From a virus: a DNA stretch of 26,860 bases. Numbering within the stretch: the stretch's first letter is position 1; every line of letters begins with the position of its first letter. The notes beneath the pieces were generated by a model that saw only the letters and a list, made by a program, of their open reading frames with translations, ran no database searches and had not been told where the DNA came from. Of the stretch, positions 3,486 to 22,501 are shown one piece after another. Location of the stretch: positions 1 to 26,860 of IMG/VR virus record IMGVR_UViG_3300024518_005761. One strand, given 5' to 3'. The position numbers and the translations under genes are program-made.

Positions 3486-5147
3486 ATGCCAGTAGTCAGT
3501 GACCCGATCCAGCTCAAGGGTCTGATCTCTCACCTGAAGGTCGAGCGTAACGATTACGACGAGACCAAGCAGGAGATCAGCGATCTCTTCATGCCGTTCC
3601 GCGGGGACATCACGACCCAGTTCCGGCACGGGTCGAAGCGCAAACCGCTCTTCGACAGCTGGGGGGTTATGCAGGCGGATCGGTTCACCAACTTCCTGAA
3701 CGGGTCGCTCTACCCCTCGTCTTCGGACTGGGTTGGGTTCCGCGTCCCGCAGAGCTTGCGGTTCGACAGGAAGATCACCGGCGCAATGGACGATACCTCG
3801 CTCAGGGTTCTGGACGCCCTCGCCGCCTCGAACTTCTACGTCGCGGCCCACACCGACACTCGAGACTGGGGAGTTCTGGGGAACAGCACGATGTTCGTCG
3901 GGCACGACGACGAGAACGCCCCCGGAGAAGGCAAGTGGGGCGGGTTGATCTTCGACCCGATCCCGTACTCGCGAGTCTGGTGGAAGTTCTCGCATATCGG
4001 GCGGCCACTGTTGATGGCGGTCGAGATGGAGATGCCGGCGATCGATGTCGTTCACTTCTTCGACAAAGACGGGGACCACATTCCGCGGCAGATCCGCGAG
4101 ATCTCCCAGAGCATTAACCCCTACGCCCTCTGCACTCTCTACCGGGTCATCCAGCGGAACCACTCCGGGAAGAAGGGGACGGCCAACAAACCATGGATCT
4201 CTACCTACTTCTACGAGCAGGACCCCGTCGTCATGCGGGAGTCGGGTTTCAACAACAACCCCTACGTCGGGGCTCGAATGATGGTGATGGACGGGGAGCA
4301 CTACGGACGCGGGAGGGGGGATATCGCAAGGCCGGTGATGAAGGGCGCGAACGAGATCACCCGTCAAAAGATGATCGCGCTCGGGAAAGAGTTCAACCCT
4401 CCGTTCATGAGCGAAGAGGACGAACTCGCCAGCCTCGACTTGACTCCCGGCGGGCACGTCATCGTGCGTCCGCCGAAGGAAGTGGCGCCCGGGTACCTGA
4501 GATCGGGGACCGACTTCCAGATCGCGGAGCTGATCACCGACAACCTGCACAAGCAAGTGACCGACGCCTTCCTCGGAGACGTGCTTGGTGAGCCGGAATC
4601 GCAGACGCGCAGTGCCGAAGCGGAGAGGTCCCGTTCGCAGAGGGCCCTGGCAGTGCTCTCGTCAACGGGCCAAACGGTCTATCACGAGAAACTATCACCG
4701 ATGATGGAGAACGTCGTCGACATCATGCTCTCCAAGAAACAGCTCCCGGAGCTGCAGGAGGTCATGAACGAAAACCCGGACCTCGACATTCGCCCGGAGT
4801 TCACCTCCCCGTTCTTCACGGCGCAGAAAGCGCAGTCCCTTAACAGGGTCGACGTGTTCCTCGAGCGGAGGCTGCAGCGGTTCGAGAGGACCGGCGACCC
4901 CAGCGCTCTGGAGGATATCGACAACGACGAACTGCGGGAGCTCGAGAAGTTCCTTGGCGATGTCCCCGCGCGCATCTTCAAGAGCCAAGAGGAGATCCTC
5001 GAGATCCGCGCCGCAAGGGCGGACCAGAATACCGACGACCAGATCGCAGCCCTGACACAGCGAGCGGGGCAAGCGCAGACACAGGTACAACTGCGACCAG
5101 GGGGAGGCCGTTCCTCAGGTGCCGGCGGACTGTTAGGGGCCGTCTAA
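3486..5147 (+). CDS. Portal protein (T7-type head-tail connector)
   Basis: The 553-aa product matches the T7 gp8-like head-tail connector family in length and layout. It has an N-terminal helical region with the conserved stretch about residues 55-80 (FDSWGVMQADRFTNFLNGSL) and a central region around DWGVLGNSTMFVG. Next come the crown/stem-type helices (ITDNLHKQVTDAFLGDV, then SAEAERSRSQRALAVL). The C-terminal tail is flexible, Gln/Gly-rich and ends RSSGAGGLLGAV. As a dodecameric ring it forms the DNA channel, binds the terminase during packaging and the adaptor afterwards. GAGGG before ATG 3486 serves as the RBS. It lies between the terminase and the scaffold genes, as usual for phages with this head type. 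Confidence 0.94.
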   Translation: MPVVSDPIQLKGLISHLKVERNDYDETKQEISDLFMPFRGDITTQFRHGSKRKPLFDSWGVMQADRFTNFLNGSLYPSSSDWVGFRVPQSLRFDRKITGAMDDTSLRVLDALAASNFYVAAHTDTRDWGVLGNSTMFVGHDDENAPGEGKWGGLIFDPIPYSRVWWKFSHIGRPLLMAVEMEMPAIDVVHFFDKDGDHIPRQIREISQSINPYALCTLYRVIQRNHSGKKGTANKPWISTYFYEQDPVVMRESGFNNNPYVGARMMVMDGEHYGRGRGDIARPVMKGANEITRQKMIALGKEFNPPFMSEEDELASLDLTPGGHVIVRPPKEVAPGYLRSGTDFQIAELITDNLHKQVTDAFLGDVLGEPESQTRSAEAERSRSQRALAVLSSTGQTVYHEKLSPMMENVVDIMLSKKQLPELQEVMNENPDLDIRPEFTSPFFTAQKAQSLNRVDVFLERRLQRFERTGDPSALEDIDNDELRELEKFLGDVPARIFKSQEEILEIRAARADQNTDDQIAALTQRAGQAQTQVQLRPGGGRSSGAGGLLGAV

Positions 5148-9890: not shown

Positions 9891-11666
9891 ATGTTCCTCA
9901 GACAATCCACAGCGCAGACCATTCGGATCGGCCCCTTCATAGACGACACCGACTTCGTTTCGGAGGAGGTTTCGCTGACGATCAGTGCCGCCGACATCCG
10001 ACTCTCGAAGGACGGCGGGAACATGGTCTCCTGCTCGGTGGGTGGAACGCACGACGAAGTCGGCTACTACTCGGTCGCCCTCGGCACAGGGGACACCGAC
10101 ACAGTGGGCACGTTGGACATCATGGTCTCTGAAACAGGGACGCTGTTCGTCAAGCACCAATACTACGTTGTCGAAGAGGCCGTCTACGACGCGATGCTCG
10201 CAAGCGGTGCCGCCCTGAATGTGGGGACGGCAGCGAGCGTGACCGGGGCAGTGGGCTCGGTGACTGGGAACGTGGGCGGAGCACTGCTCGGTAACGTGCA
10301 AGGGGATGTGGAAGGCAACGTGGACGGGTCGACTGCTTCCGTCACTGGCGCCGTGGGAAGCGTCACCGGAGCCGTTGGAAGCGTGACTGGCGCGGTGGGC
10401 TCGGTCACGGGCTCAGTGGGAAGTGTCGTCGGGGCGGTCGCCAGCGTGACGGGCGCGGTCGGGTCGGTGACTGGGCACACTGCTCAGACTGGAGACACCT
10501 TCGCATTGGCTAACGGTGCCGCCGGTTTCTCCGCCATAAACACCGACGTCGAAGCGATCCTTGCAGACACATCGACTGCCGGGGTTGTTCTTGCGACGGA
10601 CTCAGTGAACGCTGCGGCGCTCGCAGCCGACGCTGTCGCCGAGATCGCAGCGGGGATCACAGCGTCGGGGGACCCTTACGCAGGCGCCGTCTGGCTCGAC
10701 GCAGACTCAGGCACAGCGGGGACAACGGTCGGGACGCACGGGCTCCCCGGGAACCCCGTAGACAACATGGCCAACGCGGTGACCCTGGCCGACGTCGGGA
10801 AGACCGGCCTCTTCCGAGTGAACATCGCCGATCACGGGACCCCTCCGTTGGCGCTGGTGGCTGGGATCCCCGCGGTCCAGGTCGTCGGCATCGGGATGAA
10901 GGCGAACATCAATCTCAACGCGCAGGCATTCGGGGAGGGAACCGAGCAAACCGCGACGACCTTCCAGAACTGCTGGCTGCAAGGGACCTCGACCGGAGGG
11001 ATCCGTCTCGTCGACTGCGCGGTCGCGACGGCAACGGCTCTCTTCCACAGCGCCCGGGACACCGTCTTCACCGGGGGGACGATCTCGCTGCTCGCCGGGA
11101 ATTCGCAGTTCTACTCCTGCTCTTCCCAGACTACGGCGGCTTCCTTTGTCACGTTCGACCTCGCAACCAACGGGTCGATGGCGATCTTCCGACAGTTCTC
11201 CGGCGCCTTGGAATTCCAGAACATGGACGCTACCAACACGGTTGACGTCGAGGGGACCAGCACGGTCACGATCAACGCGAACTGCACCGCCGGCACCCTC
11301 ACGGTCCGGGGCGACGTCACGGTGATCGACAACTCGTCGGGCGCGGTGACACTTGTCCAGGTGAGCGGCGTGAACCTAACCCAGATAAACGGGGAGACTG
11401 CTCCGGCCTTGACGCTGCAGCGGATCCTCGACGCGACGATCGACACCACGGTCACCAGCGGCGCGAGCACTACCGGGTTCATTGCGACTGGGATCCCGAC
11501 GACGAACGACGACCAGCTCATCGACAAGACGGGGGTCTTCATTGACGGAAACGCGAAGCTCCGGGGCTTCGTCATTGCGGACTACGTTGACTCGACCAAG
11601 ACGGTGACCGTGGACCTCTTGAACGTCGCTCCAACGGCGGGCGACCGCTTCTTGATTTTCGCCTAG
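9891..11666 (+). CDS. Tail fibre/appendage-like protein with GAVGSVT repeats
   Basis: The 591-aa protein has three parts. Residues 1-115 form a beta domain (IRIGPFIDDTDF, then ADIRLSKDGGNMVSC, THDEVGYYSVAL, DTVGTLDIMVSETG) that I recognise as a frequent N-terminal module of phage appendage proteins. Residues 116-195 are low-complexity repeats of GAVGSVT type. Residues about 210-260 read INTDVEAILADTSTAGVVLA, a short coiled element. The remainder (about 270-530) has the spacing of a right-handed beta-helix (TTFQNCWLQGTSTGGIRLVDC, then DTVFTGGTISLL), ending in a small beta tail domain. Such proteins are typically trimeric and bind or decorate surfaces. There is no spike hydrolase motif that I can see. 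ATG 9891 follows the upstream stop by three bases. Confidence 0.75.
   Translation: MFLRQSTAQTIRIGPFIDDTDFVSEEVSLTISAADIRLSKDGGNMVSCSVGGTHDEVGYYSVALGTGDTDTVGTLDIMVSETGTLFVKHQYYVVEEAVYDAMLASGAALNVGTAASVTGAVGSVTGNVGGALLGNVQGDVEGNVDGSTASVTGAVGSVTGAVGSVTGAVGSVTGSVGSVVGAVASVTGAVGSVTGHTAQTGDTFALANGAAGFSAINTDVEAILADTSTAGVVLATDSVNAAALAADAVAEIAAGITASGDPYAGAVWLDADSGTAGTTVGTHGLPGNPVDNMANAVTLADVGKTGLFRVNIADHGTPPLALVAGIPAVQVVGIGMKANINLNAQAFGEGTEQTATTFQNCWLQGTSTGGIRLVDCAVATATALFHSARDTVFTGGTISLLAGNSQFYSCSSQTTAASFVTFDLATNGSMAIFRQFSGALEFQNMDATNTVDVEGTSTVTINANCTAGTLTVRGDVTVIDNSSGAVTLVQVSGVNLTQINGETAPALTLQRILDATIDTTVTSGASTTGFIATGIPTTNDDQLIDKTGVFIDGNAKLRGFVIADYVDSTKTVTVDLLNVAPTAGDRFLIFA
10236..10475 (+). repeat. 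Imperfect 21-bp coding repeats (GAVGSVT heptapeptide)
   Basis: Residues 116-195 of the surrounding protein are built from about eleven heptads of the form SVTGAVG with variants such as NVGGALLG and SVVGAVA. At DNA level the copies differ at third positions (GCC/GCA/GCG/GCT, GGA/GGG/GGC), so the repeat is kept for its protein and is not a recent tandem slip product. The central half (10343-10475) is the most regular. Confidence 0.85.
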
Positions 11667-11674
11667 GGGGAACG

Positions 11675-12280
11675 ATGGGCTGGGGAACATACAGACACCG
11701 ACCCATGGGGACCGGCGGTCCGCTCGGGGGAAGTATCAAGTGGAGGCGGGCTCGAATGCTCGTCTCGAGCAACGTCGTCCGAATCGACGGTCCGATGCTT
11801 TCGCACAAGAGTGTGCTGCCGGGCACGGGGCCGATCCTCGTCGACAGCCTCGGCGACGTCCACCAGCGCGTTTACCTCGAGCAGACCTCGAAGGGCCGGG
11901 ATTGGCAACGGTCGATCCGCGTCTCGAGTTCGGCTTCCGTTGCTCCCGCGGTTGGCGGTCTACCTCCTGGGACGGGAGGGGCCTGGGTAGAGATCGGCGC
12001 CGCAGTTGTGACGAACTTCGGGTTCAACATGGGGCACTGGGAACCCTACCAGCAGTTCCTCGACCCCAGCGAGTACCAAGGCGACGACTACCTCGACATC
12101 TCGACTACCGTCTGGCAGCCGCCGGAATACTGGGAGTCGGCCTTCACCGTCCGGCACGAGCTCTGGGCCAACGCCTACCTTTACCAGAGAGCGCTGGCGG
12201 TCCCCGAGGAGAACCAGAGAGCCCGGATCGCCGGTAGCCAGTACGCCAAGGAGCTCTCGAGCAGAAGCCGGGGGGGCTAG
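11675..12280 (+). CDS. Hypothetical virion-region protein, 201 aa
   Basis: ATG 11675 follows a GGGGGAAC site directly after the preceding stop. The N terminus is basic (KWRRARMLVSS), the middle is beta-like (VVRIDGPMLSHKSVLPGTGP) and the C-terminal third is aromatic and acidic (FNMGHWEPYQQFLDPSEYQG, then TTVWQPPEYWESAFTVRHE), ending in a helix with RARIAGSQYAKEL. No signal peptide or catalytic motif is visible. I do not recognise a family. It lies between the repeat-containing appendage gene and the Ser/Glu-repeat genes, all on the same strand with almost no spacing, so it is most likely a minor structural protein or a chaperone for its neighbours. Confidence 0.65.
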   Translation: MGWGTYRHRPMGTGGPLGGSIKWRRARMLVSSNVVRIDGPMLSHKSVLPGTGPILVDSLGDVHQRVYLEQTSKGRDWQRSIRVSSSASVAPAVGGLPPGTGGAWVEIGAAVVTNFGFNMGHWEPYQQFLDPSEYQGDDYLDISTTVWQPPEYWESAFTVRHELWANAYLYQRALAVPEENQRARIAGSQYAKELSSRSRGG

Positions 12281-13738
12281 TTGGCCAGCCTAGAAAATAG
12301 GTGCTTAGGGACTTTCGATAGCGCCACCGCTGCGCGGATCGGGACCTTCTCAGGCACCCAGGTCGGGGCTTGGTACCCGGCGAGCGAGTCCGACTCAGTC
12401 ACCCTGAACACCCATGCGTTCGAGATCTTTTGGTTCGTGAACGACGCAGGACCAGACCTTGAGGATCAGACGATCGTCTCGGTGAGGAGGGTGAGCGACG
12501 GAGCGGTCGTCAACCGCCTCTACTTCAGCGACTGGTCGCCCAAGAAAGCCATTCTCACTTGGGAGTGGATGGACATGGCCGCGGCCCCGCACTCCATGAG
12601 CGTGAAGCTGGACCTGACGCAGCTCGTCGGGGTCTGGTGGCACTCGATCATCCAGGTGTGGCCCAGGGCTGGCCAACCAGGGTCCGGCTGGGAGTCCTAC
12701 CACGGGCGCACCGGGGTCTCCCCTACCGGATCGACAGCCCCCTCGGACTCTATGCCCTATCCGAACAGGTCGCAGCAGGCGTTGCCTGGGGGCTCCTCCC
12801 TGAGCTCTGAGAAGCTCATGGGGTTCCGGTCCCCGAAGCAGGGATACAACGTAGGGTTCGGCTCGCATAAAGACGTGGCGGGGACCGGCTGGGAAACTGG
12901 GACGGACCTCGACGGCGGCTTCGCGGAGATGCGCTTGTGGTCGGGGTCGTTTGACCCGAGCCCCCGCGAGGGGGTCTCTCTGTTGGAGTCTCGTCGCAGT
13001 GTCTATGTGAGGCACGATCAAAACGCGGGAGCCTCGGGAGAGGGGAGCGGGAGCGTCTCCTCCTCGAAGCTCTTCCACTGCCAGCGGTTCAACGAAGACG
13101 CCGCCTTTGTCGATGTCGGTCAGCGCCTGTCGGACTTCACGCTGAACCTGACTCCCGCGACTCCACTGACCATCCCCTCGAGCCCGATCCAGAGGCCTAT
13201 CGATTCCGTTTCTCTCCTGCCGGAGGAAAGAGACGCAGCCGCCTCGAGCTCTTCGGCCACTCTGGACTGGGAGCGTGGCCTGGGGCTCCTGAACACCGGC
13301 GACCTCTCGAGTTCGAGCGAAGCCGCAGCTGTGGACGGCCTGCCGCTGACGTCGTCCTTCGTAGGGACAGCCGACGCCTCCGCGAGTTCGGACGCCGCGT
13401 CTGACATCCTTGCCACCCGCCGGTTTAGAGGCACCGACGACCTTGCCAGCTCGAGCGAGACTTCTGACGCAGACGTTCGTGACGCGGAGGGCCATGTTGG
13501 GACAGACCTTTCCGTAGGTGACGAGAGCGGGGTACTGACTCGGGCCTTCAGTTTCGCGCCGACTTCCGACTCTGCTGCGAGTTCGCAGAGCGCCCTCACC
13601 ATCCTCGCCTCTGAAACGGTCTCCTTGGAGTCGGCGTTCAGCTTCGGGGAGAGCGGGGAGACCTCCGTGCTGGGGATCGCCTCGGCACTTGAGCTAACGC
13701 CGTCGACGTCCCTTGCCGAGTCGTCGGAGGTGGTCTAA
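12281..13738 (+). CDS. Lectin-like domain with acidic Ser-Ser-Glu repeat tail, 485 aa
   Basis: The N-terminal half (about 1-250) has a ConA/LamG-like layout: SATAARIGTFSGTQVGAWYP, FEIFWFVNDAGP, QTIVSVRRVSDG, a WWHSIIQVWP strand and DGGFAEMRLWSGSFDP, the last being typical of a closing lectin strand. From about residue 310 it becomes acidic and Ser-rich, with recurring DLSSSSEAA, DASASSDAAS, DLASSSETSD and DSAASSQSA units 30-40 residues apart. The same repeat type continues on a large scale in the next gene. TTG 12281 directly follows the previous stop with a G-run five bases upstream; the first in-frame ATG lies near residue 95 and would remove half the lectin-like domain. It is a probable receptor- or polysaccharide-contacting surface protein. 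Confidence 0.7.
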   Translation: MASLENRCLGTFDSATAARIGTFSGTQVGAWYPASESDSVTLNTHAFEIFWFVNDAGPDLEDQTIVSVRRVSDGAVVNRLYFSDWSPKKAILTWEWMDMAAAPHSMSVKLDLTQLVGVWWHSIIQVWPRAGQPGSGWESYHGRTGVSPTGSTAPSDSMPYPNRSQQALPGGSSLSSEKLMGFRSPKQGYNVGFGSHKDVAGTGWETGTDLDGGFAEMRLWSGSFDPSPREGVSLLESRRSVYVRHDQNAGASGEGSGSVSSSKLFHCQRFNEDAAFVDVGQRLSDFTLNLTPATPLTIPSSPIQRPIDSVSLLPEERDAAASSSSATLDWERGLGLLNTGDLSSSSEAAAVDGLPLTSSFVGTADASASSDAASDILATRRFRGTDDLASSSETSDADVRDAEGHVGTDLSVGDESGVLTRAFSFAPTSDSAASSQSALTILASETVSLESAFSFGESGETSVLGIASALELTPSTSLAESSEVV

Positions 13739-16700
13739 ATGGCGAGCCCAAACGGTAGTAGAATTTGTGACGCGAACCGGGTCGCTCTGGGAGCTATCGA
13801 TGCCTCGGTCATTCTCACCTCACCGACGCAGCCCTTCGTCTTCGCCGCTGGGGTGAACGACGCCGGCGACCGCTTCCGTCCAGAGCACACGATGACGCTC
13901 TCTGCGAGAGCGATCGGCGGGACGTTCGCAGAAGTCACGACCGCCAGCACTACCGGCCCCTTCATTCAAACAAGCGAAGTCCTGATCAATAACACGGCTG
14001 TCACCGAGGCGAACCGGAGGGCTGGGCTCGGCGGGATCGGGAACTTCATCGTCTCCGGGAAGGAGCACACGAGCGCGAACGGGCTCAACCACGCTCTCGA
14101 GGTAAGAGGGAACCACACCGAAGCGCAGTGGCACTTACAGTTCGGGACCTCTGCTGTCGCTGATAGGCAGTGGGAGTTCCAGGTACTTTGGTTAGGCAAA
14201 GACGGCAACACGACCATCACCTACCCGGCCATGGTGACGACCGCAACCGGCGGTGGGCTCGGGGTTGAACGAATCCTGAACCCCACGGTCGACGTCCCTG
14301 CCGAAGGTGTCTCGAGCGAGCTGAACGTCGAACTGATAAGGGCTCGGATCCTCTTCTTTATCAGCAACCCTGTAGAGCTTGCGATCCAGAGCCAAGAGAT
14401 CGCGCAGAGCGAGAACTCTGTTCTCCTTGGCAACAATCTCGTTCTTTCGGAAGCAGCCTCCGCCGATGACATCCCTGTTTTGGAGTCGGTACTTGGGCAA
14501 GCCGCCCTAGTCGACCTCCCCTCGACCGGGTTCTCTGGCGAGGTGGGATTGCAGTACGAAGTCTCGCGCCTGGTCCCGATGATCCCTGAGCCTTTCTTGG
14601 ACGAGTCACTGTCGAGCGAGCCCCTCGCGGTCGGGCTGCACGACCTCGTCGGTTCGCTGAACCCCACGACGGACCTTGCACTAGGCTCTGAGCCACTCCC
14701 CGAGCCGGAGATGCTCACGGCCAAGGAACTCGTTTCCAACGACGTACTGTCGCAAGGGCTGTCGTCCGAGGACGAGATCACCTTGATCGTCGCCGGACGT
14801 GTGCTGCTCGTCCCCGAGGCGGTCGACAACTCTTCCAGCTCCGAGGACGACACGCTCAACCTTCTATCGAGAACCGGGTTCCTCGACGCGCTAGTAGATC
14901 TCGTTGAGTCGGACGAGCCATTGCCGCCCTTGTTCCTACTGTCGGCCAAGGAGCAAGTCTCTACTCTGGATGCCTTCTCAGACGGGGAGAGCACCGAGCT
15001 GTCGGTGCAGCTGATTAAGCATCGCGCGGTCCACCTCGTGGGCAGGGACCCCGCGCTAGACATCGGGGTCAGTAGCGAGTCAGTCGGACTCGCGCACGCC
15101 TACACCGTCGCCGTAGGAAACCCCGACAACGACAGGAGCACCGCGGCAGAGTCGGTGGGCCTGTCGCGGGCGAAGTTTCTCGAGATCGACGCCTCGATAG
15201 ACGCAGCAAACGCCGCGCACGCCACCGTTTCGAACCTGGGTCTCACCGTATCCGGGATCGTCACCCTGACGGGGCACGACGGGCTGTCCGAAGCGGCCAG
15301 CTCCGAGGTGGCATTCTGGGACAACACCCTCGCGCCGGTTGTGGACCTCGCGGCATCTTCGGAGCCCTTGCCGCCCACCGACATGGAGCTCGCGCAGGAG
15401 CTGGAGCCGGTGACGGTTTTCTTCTTCCCGGGTGGCCCATCGCAAATTCAGTGGGGGTTAAGCAGCGAGGCCGGCGTCGACATGACGGTCGCCGGGGAGG
15501 TCCCCCTCTTCCCCGAGGAGTTCCTCGACTTCGCCGAGGGCACCGAGCCTCTGTTCGACATGGAGATCGCGCAGGAACTCGTCGCTGACACGACGGACCC
15601 GGCGGAGATCGCGCAGGGCAGCGAGGCAGGGTTCGACTCGGCCATCGCTCAAGAGTACCTCGTCAAAAACCTCGCAGACCTCGTGGTTTCTGTTGAGTCC
15701 AAAGCCACGCTGATAAAAGCCGGCCAGAAGATCTTCGTCACCAACAACCCCCCCACTAACTCCTTCAGCTCCGAGCTTCTGCATCATTTCTCACTAGCGA
15801 AAGAGATGGAGGCCAGGGACGCTGCGCTCGATATCGGGGTCAGTAGCGAGGGCTCGGTCGGGTTCGCGGGGGCCTTCGAGTTGGAGGGCGTGGCGGACCT
15901 CTCCTTGAGCGACTCAGAGGCTCTCCCTACAGAGTTCCAAGTCAGTGGCCAGGTGCTCATGGTCCCGCGTGGGGACCTGGCGGCGTCAACGAGCGCTGAA
16001 GAGGCTGAGTTCGGGGTGAGCTGGGACCTCAAGCCGTCTTCCTCGACGGCTGCAGCGTCCGAGCCAGAGCTAGACGCAGGCCTTCTGAGGCTGTCGGTTC
16101 ATGACGTCGTTGCGGACGCCCCCGCCGAGGTGGAGGGGTCGAGCGAGCTCAGCCTGGAGTTGGATATCGCAGGGCAGGTTGTCTTGTTGCCGGTTGCGGT
16201 CGAGTCGGAGGCCGAAAGCACCGACCCTGTCGTCGACCTCGAGACGGCTATCGTCTTTGGCCGAGTTGCAGACGACTCCTTCGCTCTCGAGCCGCTCCCG
16301 GAGCCCGGGATAGAGAGGGACGGGTTCCTTTTCCCGAGAGAGGGAGGGGCGACCCCGAGCGGGTACTCGTTCTCAAAAGAACTCGTCTGCAACTCGGCGA
16401 AGATCCCCTCCGACCTGACCGACTTCGCGGCGTTCGTCTCGATCCCGGCCAATTCCGACCTGCGGTGGGATGCACTTGGCGGCAAGGTCTCGACGCTCCA
16501 GGGGTTCGACATCGCCTTCTTCTCGGACGCGGAACTCTCGACCGCTGTCAAACACGAGAAGATTTCCTACAACGCGGGGACCGGAGCATACGAGGCCTGG
16601 GTTCGGTTCAACCCCAGCTCGACGGTCGACACCAGCCTGTGGATCGCCTTCGGGGACGACTCCAGATCGACCGACCTCTCCGACACCTCCACGACGGGGG

Positions 16701-19700
16701 TCTTCGCGGCGTATGCAGACGGAGGGACCATCGGGTTCTGGTCGCATATGGACGAGGACCCGGAAGCGGCGACCGCCGCCGAGCGGGACCTTGTCGACGC
16801 GACTGGCCAGGGCAACACGCTACTCTCTAAATCCATCACTCCGTTTGCCGCGGCCCAGGCAGTCGGCAAGGCCGGGGACGGTATCGTCTTCGACGCCCCG
16901 TTCTCCAGTAACGCCGGATACGGGCACATCAACGCGAGCACCCATGTATGGAACGCCAGCACTACAGACTTCACGACCTCTATCTGGTGGAAGTCCGACT
17001 CCGCTCTGGGCGACGCGGACGAGCAGTACATCTGGGGGTCGTTCAACAACGGCAACGGGTTCACCGGGTTCTTCTTGAAGACCGACTTCATCACGGACAG
17101 CCTCATCTGGGAAGTGAGACTCTCTGGGCTTGAGGTGACGCAGCTCGGCATCAACGTCATCACCGACACTGACTGGCATATGCTTTCGGCATCCTGGGAC
17201 AACACGGCGGGGACGTACAAGATCTTCGTCGACGGTGTTCTCCATACCACGTTCGTCGGCGAGACGATGGGGAACACTGGGCAGCGGATCGGGATCGGCA
17301 AGCCAGACACCGGGCGTCCCCCGACCAAAGCGTTCCTTGACGAAGTCCGGATGACCGAGGCAGTTCTCTCTGACGACTGGATCAAGGCCGAGTACGAGAA
17401 CCAGATCTCCGCCGTCCCCAACGCCGGCGACTTCTGGAGTTCGCTCGGCGCGACGGTCGAGGTAACAGTCGACGGAATCTCCTCGGAGCTTAAAACCCTG
17501 CTCGTGGTGGATAGGCAAGTCTTGCTCTTCCCCCGGGCGGACCTCTCGGCGTCGGTCTCGTCGGAGCCATCGTCCCCGCCCACCGACCTCGTCATGACCT
17601 TGGGGATGGAGCCGGTGACAGCTTTCGTCTTCCCAGGCGACCCGACGTTCCAGTGGGGGTTAAGCAGCGAAGCCGACCTCGCGATCCACCGGGCTGGATT
17701 CCTAGATGCGGTCGTCGACCTGGTCGCGTCTGATGAACTATTGCTCTCGCTCTTCGTCTCCGGCCAGGTGGTCCTCGTCCCTGATGGGGCGGACAACTCG
17801 TTCTCGGACGAAGACGCGGATCTCTCGAGGACTATGGCCGACAACCCGGGGACGGACTTGGTCGTCGCCGCGGAGGCAGGGTTCGAGGGGATCGGCCTGC
17901 CCGCGATCGAGCGGGCCGGATTCGTAGATGCAGTTGTCGACCTCGTCGAGTCTGATGAGCAGGGAGTCGATCTCGCGAGGCGTTCCCCGGTCGAGTTTTT
18001 CCCGACCACCCCGGAGCTCTCGCTCTCCTCGGAACTGATCTTCGGCCTGGACCGCAATCGCACCCTCTCCTCTACCGACGCGGCTGTGAGTAGCGAGGGC
18101 GGTGACACCTCAACCGACGACTTCCCCACCGTGATGCAGGCGATGGCGCCCAACTGGTGGTGGAGGCTCGACGAGCCGCTCGGCGAGACCGCGATCCTTC
18201 AGTACGGGACAGCCGGCGGCGGACTCGGAACGAACACCGGGGCGACAATGGGAGCGGACGGAGTCATCTCCGACTCGTTCACCTCGGCGGAGTTCCTCGA
18301 CTCGCTGGACTTCGTCGCCTCGGACGACACGACGACCTGGATGACGGACGACGGGGCTTCCACTGCGGGCCCCGCCGACTACTCCTTCGGGTGCTTCTTT
18401 AATCTGAACTCCTTCTCTGCAGGAGGCCAGCAGCACCTGATGAACAAGGAGGTCTACTCAGAGATCAACGTCAACGACGACGGGTCTCTCGAGTGGATTA
18501 GATGGTCGGACGTCGCGGGCGGTACTCCCCGTTCGATCACGTCCGCCGCCGGCGTGATCCAGCTCAACACGAGGCACTTCGTCTGCTGCGTGTGGCAGAG
18601 GAGTCCGCTCCCCTTCCTCCGCGGGGAGCGTCTCTACGTCGACGGGATCGAGGTCGCAAGGGACGACACCTCAGGCGCGAACGCTTCCCAGAACTTGCCA
18701 CTGAGCAGGCCGATGAACCTCGCCGCGGAGGAGGGCCCCACCGGGGAGACCCTCGACGGAAACATACAGCACGCCTTCTTCTTCAAGGGCCGGGGGCTGA
18801 CAGCGGTAGAGGTTCAGGCTCTAAATACTGGTGGGACCGGGACGCCTGGGGTCGGAGACGCCGACCTCCTGAGATCGCGGGTCCTCGAGGTGGACGCCGA
18901 CGCTTCCTCCGGGTCTAGCGGAGACGGTGGAGGCGCCGCCGGCGACCTGGACCGAGACCGTGGACTCGAGCCCGTCGACGATCAGTCGGAGAGTGACCAG
19001 TCGGAACCCCTGAACGGGTCGGACGGGTTCGTCGCGTCTATCAACGAGGTGGAGGGCGCGACCGGGCCCGTCTGCAAATTGGAGGACTACTTGAGCAAGC
19101 TGGACATTTGGAATGTGACCCTGACCAAACTCGGGATCGAGACGCTGACCGCAACGACCGACAACGTGAGCCAGGCGGTTGGGCTCGCGGCGAACTGGGA
19201 GCCGTTCAAGAAGAACTTCCTCCGGGACCACGTTTGGAACGGAGCGAACACGACCGTCGAGCTCGTGACGTACAAAGACAACGACGGAGTGACGGCTGTC
19301 GAGCCTACGGGACCCTGGGCTCTCGCGTACTCCCTCGACCCGCTTGTCCCGGAGTGGGTCCGGTCGATCAAGCTGAACGGCAAAGAGAACAGGCCGGGCG
19401 GCAAGTCCAGAGGCGGCACTGGGCTCTGGACCGAAGGGGTAGTGTTCAATGACGTTGGGGCCGGGAAGTTCTGCCTGCTGACCAACGAGGGGACGGCCCT
19501 CCTCGAGTACACGTTCCTCGTCGCCGACAACAACCTCGACTCGTTCTTGCCTGCCGACATGCTCTGGGCTATGGCCCTCACCTTCGCAGTGCATATGGCT
19601 TCGGACCTCGGGTCCTCCAACGCTGACCTTGTGCAGCTGAAAGCGGACGCGGAACAGGCGCGGAGAGACTCGCGGAGAACTGACGCGCAGTCTGGTGCGA

Positions 19701-19744
19701 AGTTCACCTACGTTGACACCGGCATCGCGGACAGCTTCTTCTAG
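13739..19744 (+). CDS. Giant repeat/LamG protein fused in frame to the gp11-like tail adaptor, 2001 aa
   Basis: One open frame holds several modules. Residues 1-180 form a beta-rich N-terminal domain. About 190-865 are acidic repeats built on SSE cores (GVSSE, GLSSE, VDLAASSEPLPP, VDLVESDEPLPP). About 869-985 resemble DUF2341 (LTDFAAFVSIPANSDLRW, then AYEAWVRF). About 990-1225 are a LamG/ConA-like domain (TTSIWWKSDS, WHMLSASWDNTAGTYKIFVDG, FLDEVRMTEAVLS). About 1230-1455 are more repeats. About 1459-1705 are a second lectin-like domain (WWWRLDEPLGE, RLYVDGIEVARDD). An acidic linker follows, then the adaptor domain from residue 1785. GGAGGTGG precedes ATG 13739. Known gp11-like adaptors are about 200 aa and stand alone, so this fusion is exceptional. 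An internal RBS (see 19081-19744) suggests the adaptor is also made alone. The large form could anchor adhesive arms at the head-tail junction. Confidence 0.8.
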   Translation: MASPNGSRICDANRVALGAIDASVILTSPTQPFVFAAGVNDAGDRFRPEHTMTLSARAIGGTFAEVTTASTTGPFIQTSEVLINNTAVTEANRRAGLGGIGNFIVSGKEHTSANGLNHALEVRGNHTEAQWHLQFGTSAVADRQWEFQVLWLGKDGNTTITYPAMVTTATGGGLGVERILNPTVDVPAEGVSSELNVELIRARILFFISNPVELAIQSQEIAQSENSVLLGNNLVLSEAASADDIPVLESVLGQAALVDLPSTGFSGEVGLQYEVSRLVPMIPEPFLDESLSSEPLAVGLHDLVGSLNPTTDLALGSEPLPEPEMLTAKELVSNDVLSQGLSSEDEITLIVAGRVLLVPEAVDNSSSSEDDTLNLLSRTGFLDALVDLVESDEPLPPLFLLSAKEQVSTLDAFSDGESTELSVQLIKHRAVHLVGRDPALDIGVSSESVGLAHAYTVAVGNPDNDRSTAAESVGLSRAKFLEIDASIDAANAAHATVSNLGLTVSGIVTLTGHDGLSEAASSEVAFWDNTLAPVVDLAASSEPLPPTDMELAQELEPVTVFFFPGGPSQIQWGLSSEAGVDMTVAGEVPLFPEEFLDFAEGTEPLFDMEIAQELVADTTDPAEIAQGSEAGFDSAIAQEYLVKNLADLVVSVESKATLIKAGQKIFVTNNPPTNSFSSELLHHFSLAKEMEARDAALDIGVSSEGSVGFAGAFELEGVADLSLSDSEALPTEFQVSGQVLMVPRGDLAASTSAEEAEFGVSWDLKPSSSTAAASEPELDAGLLRLSVHDVVADAPAEVEGSSELSLELDIAGQVVLLPVAVESEAESTDPVVDLETAIVFGRVADDSFALEPLPEPGIERDGFLFPREGGATPSGYSFSKELVCNSAKIPSDLTDFAAFVSIPANSDLRWDALGGKVSTLQGFDIAFFSDAELSTAVKHEKISYNAGTGAYEAWVRFNPSSTVDTSLWIAFGDDSRSTDLSDTSTTGVFAAYADGGTIGFWSHMDEDPEAATAAERDLVDATGQGNTLLSKSITPFAAAQAVGKAGDGIVFDAPFSSNAGYGHINASTHVWNASTTDFTTSIWWKSDSALGDADEQYIWGSFNNGNGFTGFFLKTDFITDSLIWEVRLSGLEVTQLGINVITDTDWHMLSASWDNTAGTYKIFVDGVLHTTFVGETMGNTGQRIGIGKPDTGRPPTKAFLDEVRMTEAVLSDDWIKAEYENQISAVPNAGDFWSSLGATVEVTVDGISSELKTLLVVDRQVLLFPRADLSASVSSEPSSPPTDLVMTLGMEPVTAFVFPGDPTFQWGLSSEADLAIHRAGFLDAVVDLVASDELLLSLFVSGQVVLVPDGADNSFSDEDADLSRTMADNPGTDLVVAAEAGFEGIGLPAIERAGFVDAVVDLVESDEQGVDLARRSPVEFFPTTPELSLSSELIFGLDRNRTLSSTDAAVSSEGGDTSTDDFPTVMQAMAPNWWWRLDEPLGETAILQYGTAGGGLGTNTGATMGADGVISDSFTSAEFLDSLDFVASDDTTTWMTDDGASTAGPADYSFGCFFNLNSFSAGGQQHLMNKEVYSEINVNDDGSLEWIRWSDVAGGTPRSITSAAGVIQLNTRHFVCCVWQRSPLPFLRGERLYVDGIEVARDDTSGANASQNLPLSRPMNLAAEEGPTGETLDGNIQHAFFFKGRGLTAVEVQALNTGGTGTPGVGDADLLRSRVLEVDADASSGSSGDGGGAAGDLDRDRGLEPVDDQSESDQSEPLNGSDGFVASINEVEGATGPVCKLEDYLSKLDIWNVTLTKLGIETLTATTDNVSQAVGLAANWEPFKKNFLRDHVWNGANTTVELVTYKDNDGVTAVEPTGPWALAYSLDPLVPEWVRSIKLNGKENRPGGKSRGGTGLWTEGVVFNDVGAGKFCLLTNEGTALLEYTFLVADNNLDSFLPADMLWAMALTFAVHMASDLGSSNADLVQLKADAEQARRDSRRTDAQSGAKFTYVDTGIADSFF
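15371..15472 (+). repeat. Internal repeat block, copy 1
   Basis: The block encodes PPTDMELAQ followed by EPVTVFFFPGG and QWGLSSEAG. It matches the block at 17576-17674 in order and largely in DNA. The two share the 20-base string cagtgggggttaagcagcga (15449-15468 and 17651-17670). A second coding repeat lies nearby: atcggggtcagtagcgag occurs at 15062-15079 and 15833-15850 (ALDIGVSSE). Identity at codon third positions indicates fairly recent duplication or recombination inside the giant gene. Confidence 0.85.
17576..17674 (+). repeat. Internal repeat block, copy 2
   Basis: The block encodes PPTDLVMTL, EPVTAFVFPGDP and QWGLSSEAD, the counterpart of 15371-15472. It is followed by RAGFLDAVVDLVASDE, itself related to RTGFLDALVDLVESDE near residue 377 and RAGFVDAVVDLVESDE near residue 1390. 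The gene therefore carries shuffled copies of several units on both sides of the first LamG domain. Confidence 0.85.
19081..19093 (+). promoter_or_regulatory. Internal RBS and TTG start for the adaptor domain
   Basis: GGAGG at 19081-19085 is followed by five bases and TTG at 19091, in frame with the giant ORF. The strength and spacing equal those of the glycosyltransferase gene. The TTG also overlaps an out-of-frame TGA (TTGA at 19091-19094), the same junction shape as at 5445. The position coincides with the first residues of the adaptor domain, which makes a functional start likely. Confidence 0.6.
19091..19744 (+). CDS. Tail tubular protein A / adaptor (T7 gp11-like), internal-start product, 217 aa
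   Basis: Read from the internal TTG the protein begins M-SKLDIWNVTLTKLGIETL, a usual opening for gp11-like adaptors (a helix with NxxLxxLG). Next come SQAVGLAANWEPFKKNFLRDHVWN, matching the conserved pattern of a basic helix followed by (H)xW; GPWALAYSLDPLVPEWVRSI, the strand contacting portal or nozzle; and LEYTFLVADNNLDSFLPADMLWAMALTFA with a final charged helix (LVQLKADAEQARRDSRR). The length of 217 aa compares with 196 aa in T7. Adaptors form a ring between portal and nozzle. The gene is followed nine bases later by the nozzle gene, exactly as gp11-gp12. It is listed as a separate feature because the domain has its own SD; whether the fused form, the short form or both are made is unknown. 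Confidence 0.75.
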   Translation: MSKLDIWNVTLTKLGIETLTATTDNVSQAVGLAANWEPFKKNFLRDHVWNGANTTVELVTYKDNDGVTAVEPTGPWALAYSLDPLVPEWVRSIKLNGKENRPGGKSRGGTGLWTEGVVFNDVGAGKFCLLTNEGTALLEYTFLVADNNLDSFLPADMLWAMALTFAVHMASDLGSSNADLVQLKADAEQARRDSRRTDAQSGAKFTYVDTGIADSFF

Positions 19745-19753
19745 GGGGAACCA

Positions 19754-22501
19754 ATGGTCTGGGTCGGACAAGAATCGTTCGCGAGTGGAGAGATCAGCCC
19801 AAGTGTGTTTGGGTTGGTCAGCTCATCCCAATACCGCAACGGCTGCCAAACGCTTACGAACGCGCTCCTCACCCCCACCGGAGCCGCGAAGAAAAGGCAC
19901 GGGACGGTGGAGGTGTCGGACGTGACGGGGCCGGATCCTGCAGGCTTGCCCGCGGCCCTCTTCTCCTACTTCGCGAAGGGGAGGCAATACGTTGTCCAGT
20001 TCGTCTCTCAGGACGACGACGCGGGGGACCTAAACACGTCGCTCCGGCAGGTCCGGGTCCTCGACGCGGTGACTCGAGCCTTCATCAACGTGGGCGACAA
20101 CTTGAGCCACGGCCCGTTCGACTCATTCGGCGACACCACCGCGTATCACCACCACTTCACCGCGTCACAGCTCGGGGAGGTCTACTCCTACCAAGACAAC
20201 GAGCGAATCTACTTCTGCCACCCGGACCTTCCGCCGCTCTTCCTCGAGAGGGAGGTAGTCGAGGGTGGAGTCGAGAGGTGGAAGTACGGGGTCACGCCTC
20301 CGCCGGCAACGAGTCCGAGGATCATCGACTACCAAATACCGTCGACCCTCACCCACCCGACCAGCACCACTATTGAGTTCAGCACTCCGCAGTTCGAGAA
20401 GGAGGACGAAGGCTCGTTCTGGAGGCTCGGAGGACCTGGGGTCGCCCCGCAAACAAACCTCTACGGAGGATGGTTCCGGGCTGACACCTACAGGAGCGCT
20501 ACCACCATGGAAGGCGCCGAGGTCTATGGTGCCCCGTTCGGCGTGGACAATTCCGACTGGACCGGCCCATACCTTCCGGGAGGGGCCCCTTGGACCGTCA
20601 CCCTAGTCACCGCGCTGACCGTCCAGAACTCGACCTCGGTCGTAGACTGGTCGGCTGGACCGACCGCCGGCGTGAACTGGGTGGGTCTGATCATCGTGAT
20701 CGCGGCAGTCCCCTGCATTGTGATAGACGTCTCAGCGACGAACCAGTTCACCGTTCTCCGGCTCGGCGGGGGAGCGACCCTCGGCGCGTCCCCCACTACT
20801 CATCAGGCATTGAACTACGCCCTTGGCGCCGACCCGAACATCGTCGCGAATCAGTTCCTCGAGACTCGCCCTTACTTCAAGAAGCACCCGATCAAGCCGT
20901 CGAACTCTACCGGCACTGTCACGCTGACCAGCTCGTCGGGGTTTCTCGACGCGACGGGCGGGGGGCATATCTCATGGCTTCCAGACCAGCACCATGTCAC
21001 CTTTGACGATGACGCCGGGCTTGCCGTTGGAGGGACGGTGCATCTCAACGGTGGCATTATCGCGCTGACCGGAGTCACGACGACGGCTGGCCCTGGCTCT
21101 GACGAGACGACCTATCAGGGCAAGGTGGTCAAGACACTCGCCCACGTTGGGCCCTCTATGCAGTGGGGGCTCGGGATGAGCAATGGAGTTGGGTTCCCGG
21201 CGTGCGGAGGTTCACACCAGGGGAGGAACTACTTCGGAGGGTTCAAGGAGAGGCCGACGAGGCTGATCGGTTCCCGTGTGTTTGCGAGGGACGACTACCT
21301 CGCAGGTCCGAACGACGCCGACCCGATCGCAATCGACTTGTCCGACCCTCTCGGCGGTCGCATCAACTGGATGGAGAGCAGCTCCGACCTCCTGGTCGGG
21401 ACCGCGACTGCGGAGTTCTCTATCGGTGGGCGCCCGCTAACGCCTTCCAACCTGGCGGTCGAAAGACAGAGCGGGTTCGGGTCGCGTAACGTCCGACCCC
21501 AACTCGTAGGAAGCTCCGCGGTCTTCGTAGACGGTGGGGGCAAGGGGCTAAGGGAGATGACCTTCAGCCTGGAGGCCGACCGATACGATAGCCCGGACCT
21601 CACCGACCTCGCGAAGCACCTCTTCGAGAACATCGTCATCAAGCAGATCGCCTACGTCACTTCGCCCGAAACGATCCTCTACGTTCTGGATACCGAGGGT
21701 GTCATGTACGCCTTCAGCTACTTCAAAAGAAACGGGGTCGCGGGCTGGAGCAAGTTCGAGCAGGCGGCCTTCCCGGTCGACACCAACACCGCGACTGAGG
21801 TCTCGACGATCGAGACCATGTGCGTCGTCAGAGCTGACGGGGTGAACATCCTGAAGGACGAGGTATGGCTCGTTCGGGACTTCAAAGTCGGTGGGGCGGT
21901 AACCGCAGGATCTCAGAGGTTCCAGATCGAGTTGATGTCGCCAGACTACAACATGGATGCCAGCCATCTCGACGTGACCCCAGCGCAGACGACATGCAAT
22001 GCGGGTCTCAACTACCGCCTGCTCACCGTCAGCTCCACCGCGCAACTGGCCGCCGGAGATGACTTCGTTTACCTCGGGGACTTCTCAGCCTCAGTCACAG
22101 GGAACCTCGACTTCTACCCCGACCTCGGGGTCGTACCTATCGAGCAGCTCTCAGGAATAAAAATACGGTTCAACCTCGTTGCCGTCACTCCGCACGTCAC
22201 GATCCCCGGAGAGGGAGACACGCAGGGCCGGCTCGAGCGGGTGACCGCTGCGCTGATCCTCTTGCGAAGGTCTCGAGGAGGGACTGCCGGCGACGGAGTG
22301 AAGGCTGGGACCTTGATGCCCCCTGGTGTGGTGATCCCAAACCAGAGCAACGCGGCAGTGCCGATCGCCGCTCTGAACGAATGGCGGAGGGTCGTCTCGG
22401 TCGGGGTTCATGGGAGCATGGCGCGTCTCGAGATCATCCAGACGGAGCCCTACCACTTCGAGGTGGGGGGGATCAACTTCCAGATGACGTTTGGCAAATG
22501 A
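19754..22501 (+). CDS. Tail tubular protein B / nozzle (T7 gp12-like)
   Basis: The 915-aa protein begins VWVGQESFASGEISPSVFGL followed by YRNGCQTLTNALLTPTGAAK and KRHGT. This is the hallmark N terminus of gp12-like nozzle proteins (F..GE.SP...G, Y..GC..L.N....P.G...R.GT). The long beta-rich body includes NYFGGFKERPTRLIGSRVFA, FSIGGRPLTPSNLAVERQSG, then RNVRPQLVGSSAVFVDGGGK and LREMTFSLEADRYDSPDLTD, all typical of the propeller-like body. It is somewhat longer than T7 gp12 (794 aa). GGGGAACC precedes ATG 19754. The nozzle forms the distal end of the short tail and usually carries the fibres or spikes. Its stop overlaps the next start as ATGA. Confidence 0.93.
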   Translation: MVWVGQESFASGEISPSVFGLVSSSQYRNGCQTLTNALLTPTGAAKKRHGTVEVSDVTGPDPAGLPAALFSYFAKGRQYVVQFVSQDDDAGDLNTSLRQVRVLDAVTRAFINVGDNLSHGPFDSFGDTTAYHHHFTASQLGEVYSYQDNERIYFCHPDLPPLFLEREVVEGGVERWKYGVTPPPATSPRIIDYQIPSTLTHPTSTTIEFSTPQFEKEDEGSFWRLGGPGVAPQTNLYGGWFRADTYRSATTMEGAEVYGAPFGVDNSDWTGPYLPGGAPWTVTLVTALTVQNSTSVVDWSAGPTAGVNWVGLIIVIAAVPCIVIDVSATNQFTVLRLGGGATLGASPTTHQALNYALGADPNIVANQFLETRPYFKKHPIKPSNSTGTVTLTSSSGFLDATGGGHISWLPDQHHVTFDDDAGLAVGGTVHLNGGIIALTGVTTTAGPGSDETTYQGKVVKTLAHVGPSMQWGLGMSNGVGFPACGGSHQGRNYFGGFKERPTRLIGSRVFARDDYLAGPNDADPIAIDLSDPLGGRINWMESSSDLLVGTATAEFSIGGRPLTPSNLAVERQSGFGSRNVRPQLVGSSAVFVDGGGKGLREMTFSLEADRYDSPDLTDLAKHLFENIVIKQIAYVTSPETILYVLDTEGVMYAFSYFKRNGVAGWSKFEQAAFPVDTNTATEVSTIETMCVVRADGVNILKDEVWLVRDFKVGGAVTAGSQRFQIELMSPDYNMDASHLDVTPAQTTCNAGLNYRLLTVSSTAQLAAGDDFVYLGDFSASVTGNLDFYPDLGVVPIEQLSGIKIRFNLVAVTPHVTIPGEGDTQGRLERVTAALILLRRSRGGTAGDGVKAGTLMPPGVVIPNQSNAAVPIAALNEWRRVVSVGVHGSMARLEIIQTEPYHFEVGGINFQMTFGK

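Follow-up and report, generated by a model that had tools for sequence, protein, structure and literature searches.

A giant repeat protein fused to a T7 gp11-type head-tail adaptor, with a conserved candidate start site where the two domains meet, in four lineages of uncultured short-tailed phages

A giant open reading frame that ends in a head-tail adaptor

The window, that is, the whole stretch of DNA analysed here (26,860 nucleotides), is a virus fragment of 26.9 kb, and cultured phages include no near relative of it. A giant ORF in its structural region (Table 1) had been noted beforehand from the sequence as an uninterrupted frame of 2001 codons, and positions 13739-19744 are indeed open from the ATG to the TAG. 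The encoded protein comprises, in this order, an N-terminal domain, degenerate repeats, two LamG domains, a flexible linker and a C-terminal gp11-type adaptor. The two LamG-like domains named in the preliminary description both reach the gathering cut-off of Laminin_G_3 (PF13385; 45 and 32 bits, cut-off 27.6). Its "acidic repeats" form a degenerate array with a period of ~22-26 residues and an SSE/SAE-like motif. Neither the repeats nor the N-domain of the window's giant protein matched a Pfam family, and Pfam and phrog profiles revealed no fibre anchor of a known family in the arm.

Table 1 Features of the giant ORF and its neighbourhood in the window
Feature	Position	Strand	Remarks
Portal (Head-tail_con)	3486..5147	+	Basis of the tree
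Probable virion fibre, 591 aa	9891..11666	+	Low-complexity V-T-G repeats
201-aa protein	11675..12280	+	Syntenic upstream neighbour in all four lineages
485-aa ORF	12281..13738	+	Same frame as giant ORF; ends with TAA right before ATG 13739
Shine-Dalgarno (SD) GGAGG	13726..13730	+	8 nt 5' of the giant ORF's ATG (13739)
Giant fusion ORF, 2001 codons/2001 aa	13739..19744	+	ATG to TAG, no stop inside
First Laminin_G_3 domain	16913..17383	+	Residues 1059-1215; Pfam
Second Laminin_G_3 domain	18356..18814	+	Residues about 1540-1692; Pfam
Linker end	19046..19090	+	Amino acids conserved across the four lineages (E-x-E...[VL]-C-x-L-E-x-Y)
Codon-invariant block TTG GAG NNN TAC TTG AGC	19079..19096	+	Covers SD and internal start
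Internal SD GGAGG	19081..19085	+	
Internal in-frame TTG	19091..19093	+	Codon 1785, putative start of free adaptor; 5 nt (ACTAC) after SD
gp11-type head-tail adaptor, 217 aa	19091..19744	+	C-terminus of giant ORF
Tail nozzle, gp12-like (phrog_376)	19754..22501	+	Directly after giant ORF

The C-terminal 217 residues are a T7 gp11-type adaptor, as had been proposed for residues 1785-2001. The phrog_394 (tail protein) profile aligned from model position 3 with about residues 1786-1985 of the giant protein (1-201 of the 217 adaptor residues; E 5.9e-16). A phmmer search of the PDB with the single adaptor sequence gave no match, whereas the adaptor family profile matched 8ck1_E (connector, 3.1e-27) and 9efk_T (3e-7), both solved podovirus adaptors. 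Moreover, the structure predicted for residues 1740-2001 (moderate confidence, mean pLDDT 67) gave significant fold matches to podovirus adaptors only, T7 gp11 among them; the best 28 Foldseek matches were all phage adaptor or tail-complex chains, with TM scores of about 0.5 by target length. In this model, the linker is disordered to about residue 1780 and helix 1 runs from L1781, within the codon-invariant block. The gene order portal - capsid - adaptor - nozzle, as for T7 gp11-type adaptors, is present as well.

The preliminary description had envisaged arms anchored without separate fibre genes, which is doubtful, as at least one other fibre-like gene (9891-11666) and an arm-like gene (12281-13738) lie just upstream. 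The latter, the 485-aa ORF, is split from the giant ORF by a single TAA, with the ATG immediately after it and GGAGG 8 nt upstream of the ATG. Homologues of the 485-aa protein form the N-terminus of the fused giant protein in the relatives described below (L002, L088/L089 and L092), and profile comparison showed no relation between the N-domain of the window's own giant protein and that of the 485-aa protein. The window's phage thus appears to make an extra arm-like protein without an adaptor, while its giant protein bears a different N-terminal domain. A low-confidence model of the 485-aa protein resembles concanavalin-like lectins and alginate lyases. As for the fibre-like protein, its first ~110 residues show a 40% match to a small protein of Microcystis phage Mvi-Yong1342-1 (L007:12228-12851), and this segment is possibly a mobile virion-anchor domain.

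Distribution and history of the fusion

Besides the window, the fusion was found in three further lineages, giving four lineages on five contigs, all of which are uncultured fragments. L002 was found via the nozzle protein, L088/L089 via the DNA pattern of the SD and start, and L092 via adaptor peptides alone; L088/L089 are two assemblies of nearly one virus with the same frame. Several other searches gave no match, namely the adaptor and the N-terminus as single queries against viral contigs (the pattern MSKLDIWN misses relatives with LSKLDIWN), the adaptor pair in genome contigs, and either the arm domains or the adaptor of L092 against cultured phages. In each relative, the adaptor ends one giant single frame, of 1947 codons in L002, 1625 in L088/L089 and 1543 in L092. 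The adaptors of these relatives are 64-73% identical, their portals are only 65-70% identical to that of the window, and the gene order of the structural module is common to all four lineages. The arm is strongly divergent between lineages, as would be expected of a host-facing part, whereas the adaptor is conserved.

In the portal tree, the four fused lineages form one clade with support of 100/100, far from the remaining phages. At 40 loci of more distant relatives, by contrast, the adaptor stands alone in a frame of 188-215 codons from stop to stop and starts at most one residue from the position of the window's TTG. Because the fused lineages form one clade and the adaptors of distant relatives are stand-alone, the fusion would most simply have arisen once before the clade split and then been kept. 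The preliminary description had also considered a recent stop-loss and had suggested looking in related genomes for a stop before 19091. None was found in L002, L088/L089 or L092, and the adaptor is separate only in the distant relatives. As the window is a single fragment, its fusion might be suspected to be an artefact of assembly or the result of a frameshift or recent stop-loss in this one contig, but its recurrence in four lineages that come from different assemblies refutes this and leaves it a negligible probability; the fusion is older than the split of lineages with 65-70% portal identity.

Several further features were observed. The giant protein of L002 (4149-9992) contains an inserted region at residues about 1020-1590 that matched no Pfam family, has a LamG-like segment at its centre and, judged by eye, resembled a polysaccharide-lyase-type domain. 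In the L092 contig (G004), the major capsid gene (25995-26937, minus strand) is split into two frames, probably by an assembly or sequencing error. In addition, the differences between the near-identical assemblies L093/L094 (14254-16881) fall almost exclusively within residues 683-842 of a protein of 875 aa in the internal-virion-protein region, with 10 silent and 32 replacement changes, which suggests a local recombination patch.

A codon-invariant block at the adaptor border

At the first residue of the adaptor, GGAGG is followed after five bases by an in-frame TTG, exactly as described beforehand (19081-19093). To score its conservation, the adaptor and linker codons of the four lineages were aligned, and positions with an invariant amino acid were scored for codon identity. 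From L1781 to S1786, all five amino-acid-invariant positions are also codon-invariant, compared with 13/104 in the rest of the adaptor, in which the 13 other invariant leucines all vary in codon. The comparison was extended to six-codon windows with at least five invariant residues in nine genes common to all four genomes. Only one of 315 such windows is fully codon-invariant, and it is the SD/TTG block; with L088/L089 (the lineage retrieved through its DNA pattern) left out, the block is again the only one, among 467. Because the site had been named beforehand, this was not a search over many sites. Strong in-frame sites, defined as GGAGG or AGGAG with a spacer of 4-9 before a start, occur twice in the giant frame of the window and once or twice per relative, and only that at 19081-19093 lies at the same place in the four lineages. 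A 20-base motif at the joint occurs once in the window (0.02 in shuffles), and RNA structure around the internal start is weaker than average in all four lineages. TTG is as a rule a weak start codon. The simplest reading of the codon constraint is selection on translation initiation, and production of a free adaptor from the internal start, in addition to the fusion, is well supported by this comparative evidence.

The same block may be explained if only the fusion is made, with an arm on every ring subunit (up to 12) and codon identity arising by chance over a protein constraint on helix 1. Such a reading agrees with the continuous frame in every lineage and with the LE.YLS residues, which are kept as protein and begin helix 1 in the model, but it is unlikely considering the contrast in codon identity with the rest of the adaptor and the uniqueness of the block among the 315 windows. 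Furthermore, only a minority of leucines are encoded by TTG, and although L092 has 50% GC and uses TAC at only 7/28 of its Tyr codons, it still has GGAGG, the 5-nt spacing, TAC and TTG. Alternatively, the constraint at the nucleotide level might reflect another nucleic-acid signal, such as a late promoter, a regulatory hairpin or a recombination point. The block is present in one copy per genome, by which a late promoter or other repeated signal was rejected; it has the exact geometry of SD, spacing and start at the homologous adaptor start, and a tract of ~20 bases between diverged codons is short for recombination, so that a signal other than a start is highly improbable. Cleavage of the giant polypeptide at the conserved linker into separate arm and adaptor would suit a flexible linker with conserved E-x-E and C residues. 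It is nevertheless quite improbable, as the analysis identified neither a recognised protease site nor a phage protease and the codon-invariant SD and start would be left unexplained.

Compared with the block, the residues just upstream show the opposite pattern. In all four lineages, E1770, E1772 and C1779 remain the same amino acids although their codons differ synonymously, which is expected if the joint is also translated from upstream as protein; the rest of the linker diverges between lineages. Since the linker evidence consists of few residues, it is mainly the conservation of the open frame that makes the case for a read-through product. Together, the fusion in four lineages and the protein-level conservation just upstream of the border favour a genuine read-through fusion. 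They also speak against the free adaptor being the only functional product, with the giant tolerated or a by-product. Although the SD and start are the most codon-constrained stretch in the shared genes, as this would predict, frames of more than 1,500 codons stay open through the joint in all four lineages, making it very unlikely. Structural genes of the SPP1 17.1* and T7 10B type are recoded by programmed frameshift or readthrough, but no recoding site was found between arm and adaptor, which lie in one frame without a stop; by inspection of the four lineages, they share no slippery sequence at the joint. A programmed frameshift was considered as well, because a +1-frame TGA (cTTGAgc) overlaps the start, and was rejected, as the required slip of tRNA-Tyr from TAC to ACT is implausible.

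A proposed mixed adaptor ring and known systems

Translation initiation at both sites is thus the preferred explanation, and the two-product idea of the preliminary description gains support from an SD and TTG kept codon-invariant amid varying codons. One frame with two starts probably yields a covalent arm-adaptor fusion and a free adaptor that mix in one ring. Ribosomes entering at 13739 would make the 2001-residue protein, consisting of a long lectin-bearing repeat arm, the flexible linker and an adaptor subunit, whereas those entering at GGAGG-N5-TTG (19091) would make only the ordinary adaptor of 217 residues. Plain and fused subunits would then both enter the adaptor ring beneath the portal, most positions being plain and some carrying a giant arm extending to the host surface. 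On balance, we slightly favour such a chimaeric ring, with covalent lectin arms of 1,300-1,800 residues whose number per virion would depend on how often each start is used relative to the other, rather than on the docking of fibres made as separate proteins. The LamG domains and the low-confidence lectin-like model suggest that the arms may bind, and perhaps degrade, sugars of the host surface. The model predicts two products from one frame, the short one starting at the TTG, which ordinary gene callers would miss by annotating one giant gene and no adaptor in this clade.

The adaptor resembles the T7 gp11 type in profile, in its gene position before a gp12-like nozzle and in predicted fold, a helix bundle with a beta domain. 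On the portal, and only there, T7 gp11 assembles into a ring of 12 subunits, which bears docks for separate fibres (PMC6702177). Known adaptors of this type are stand-alone proteins of ~200 aa, whereas here the adaptor is fused, in its only open frame, as the C-terminus of a protein of 1,500-2,000 aa with a putative internal start, the product of which would be a stand-alone protein of about that length. A search of the literature outside subscription papers found no other adaptor-arm fusion.

Two in-frame starts in one gene are familiar from lambda C/Nu3 and T7 4A/4B. SPP1 genes 24.1 and 26 also have dual starts (PMC6316719). Such genes carry an internal in-frame start served by a ribosome-binding site that is its own or lies at the correct spacing, and the giant ORF likewise has a spaced SD and in-frame start inside the gene, at a site conserved beyond the encoded amino acids. 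The products of the SPP1, lambda and T7 pairs, however, are lysis proteins, scaffold/protease or primase-helicase, and none links a surface arm to a head-tail adaptor. A closer parallel in function is the SPP1 tail tube, in which gp17.1 and the extended gp17.1* occur together at 3:1 through a +1 frameshift (PMC6316719). In both cases, one gene would give a plain and an extended ring-building tail subunit, in SPP1 at a set ratio. The extension of gp17.1* is an 87-aa C-terminal one made by frameshift, whereas here it is N-terminal and ~1,780 aa long, and the short form would be made by internal initiation.

Podoviruses normally dock their fibres, made as separate proteins, to the adaptor-nozzle joint. 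The giant arm would resemble podovirus fibres and tailspikes (T7 gp17 and others) in being elongated, in its position around the adaptor and, presumably, in binding the host surface. T7 gp17-type fibres, however, are separate trimers with an N-terminal anchor domain, whereas the anchor of the giant arm is a covalent, C-terminal adaptor. A conserved covalent arm-adaptor fusion with a conserved internal start would offer a further means of attaching host-binding appendages and of setting their number.
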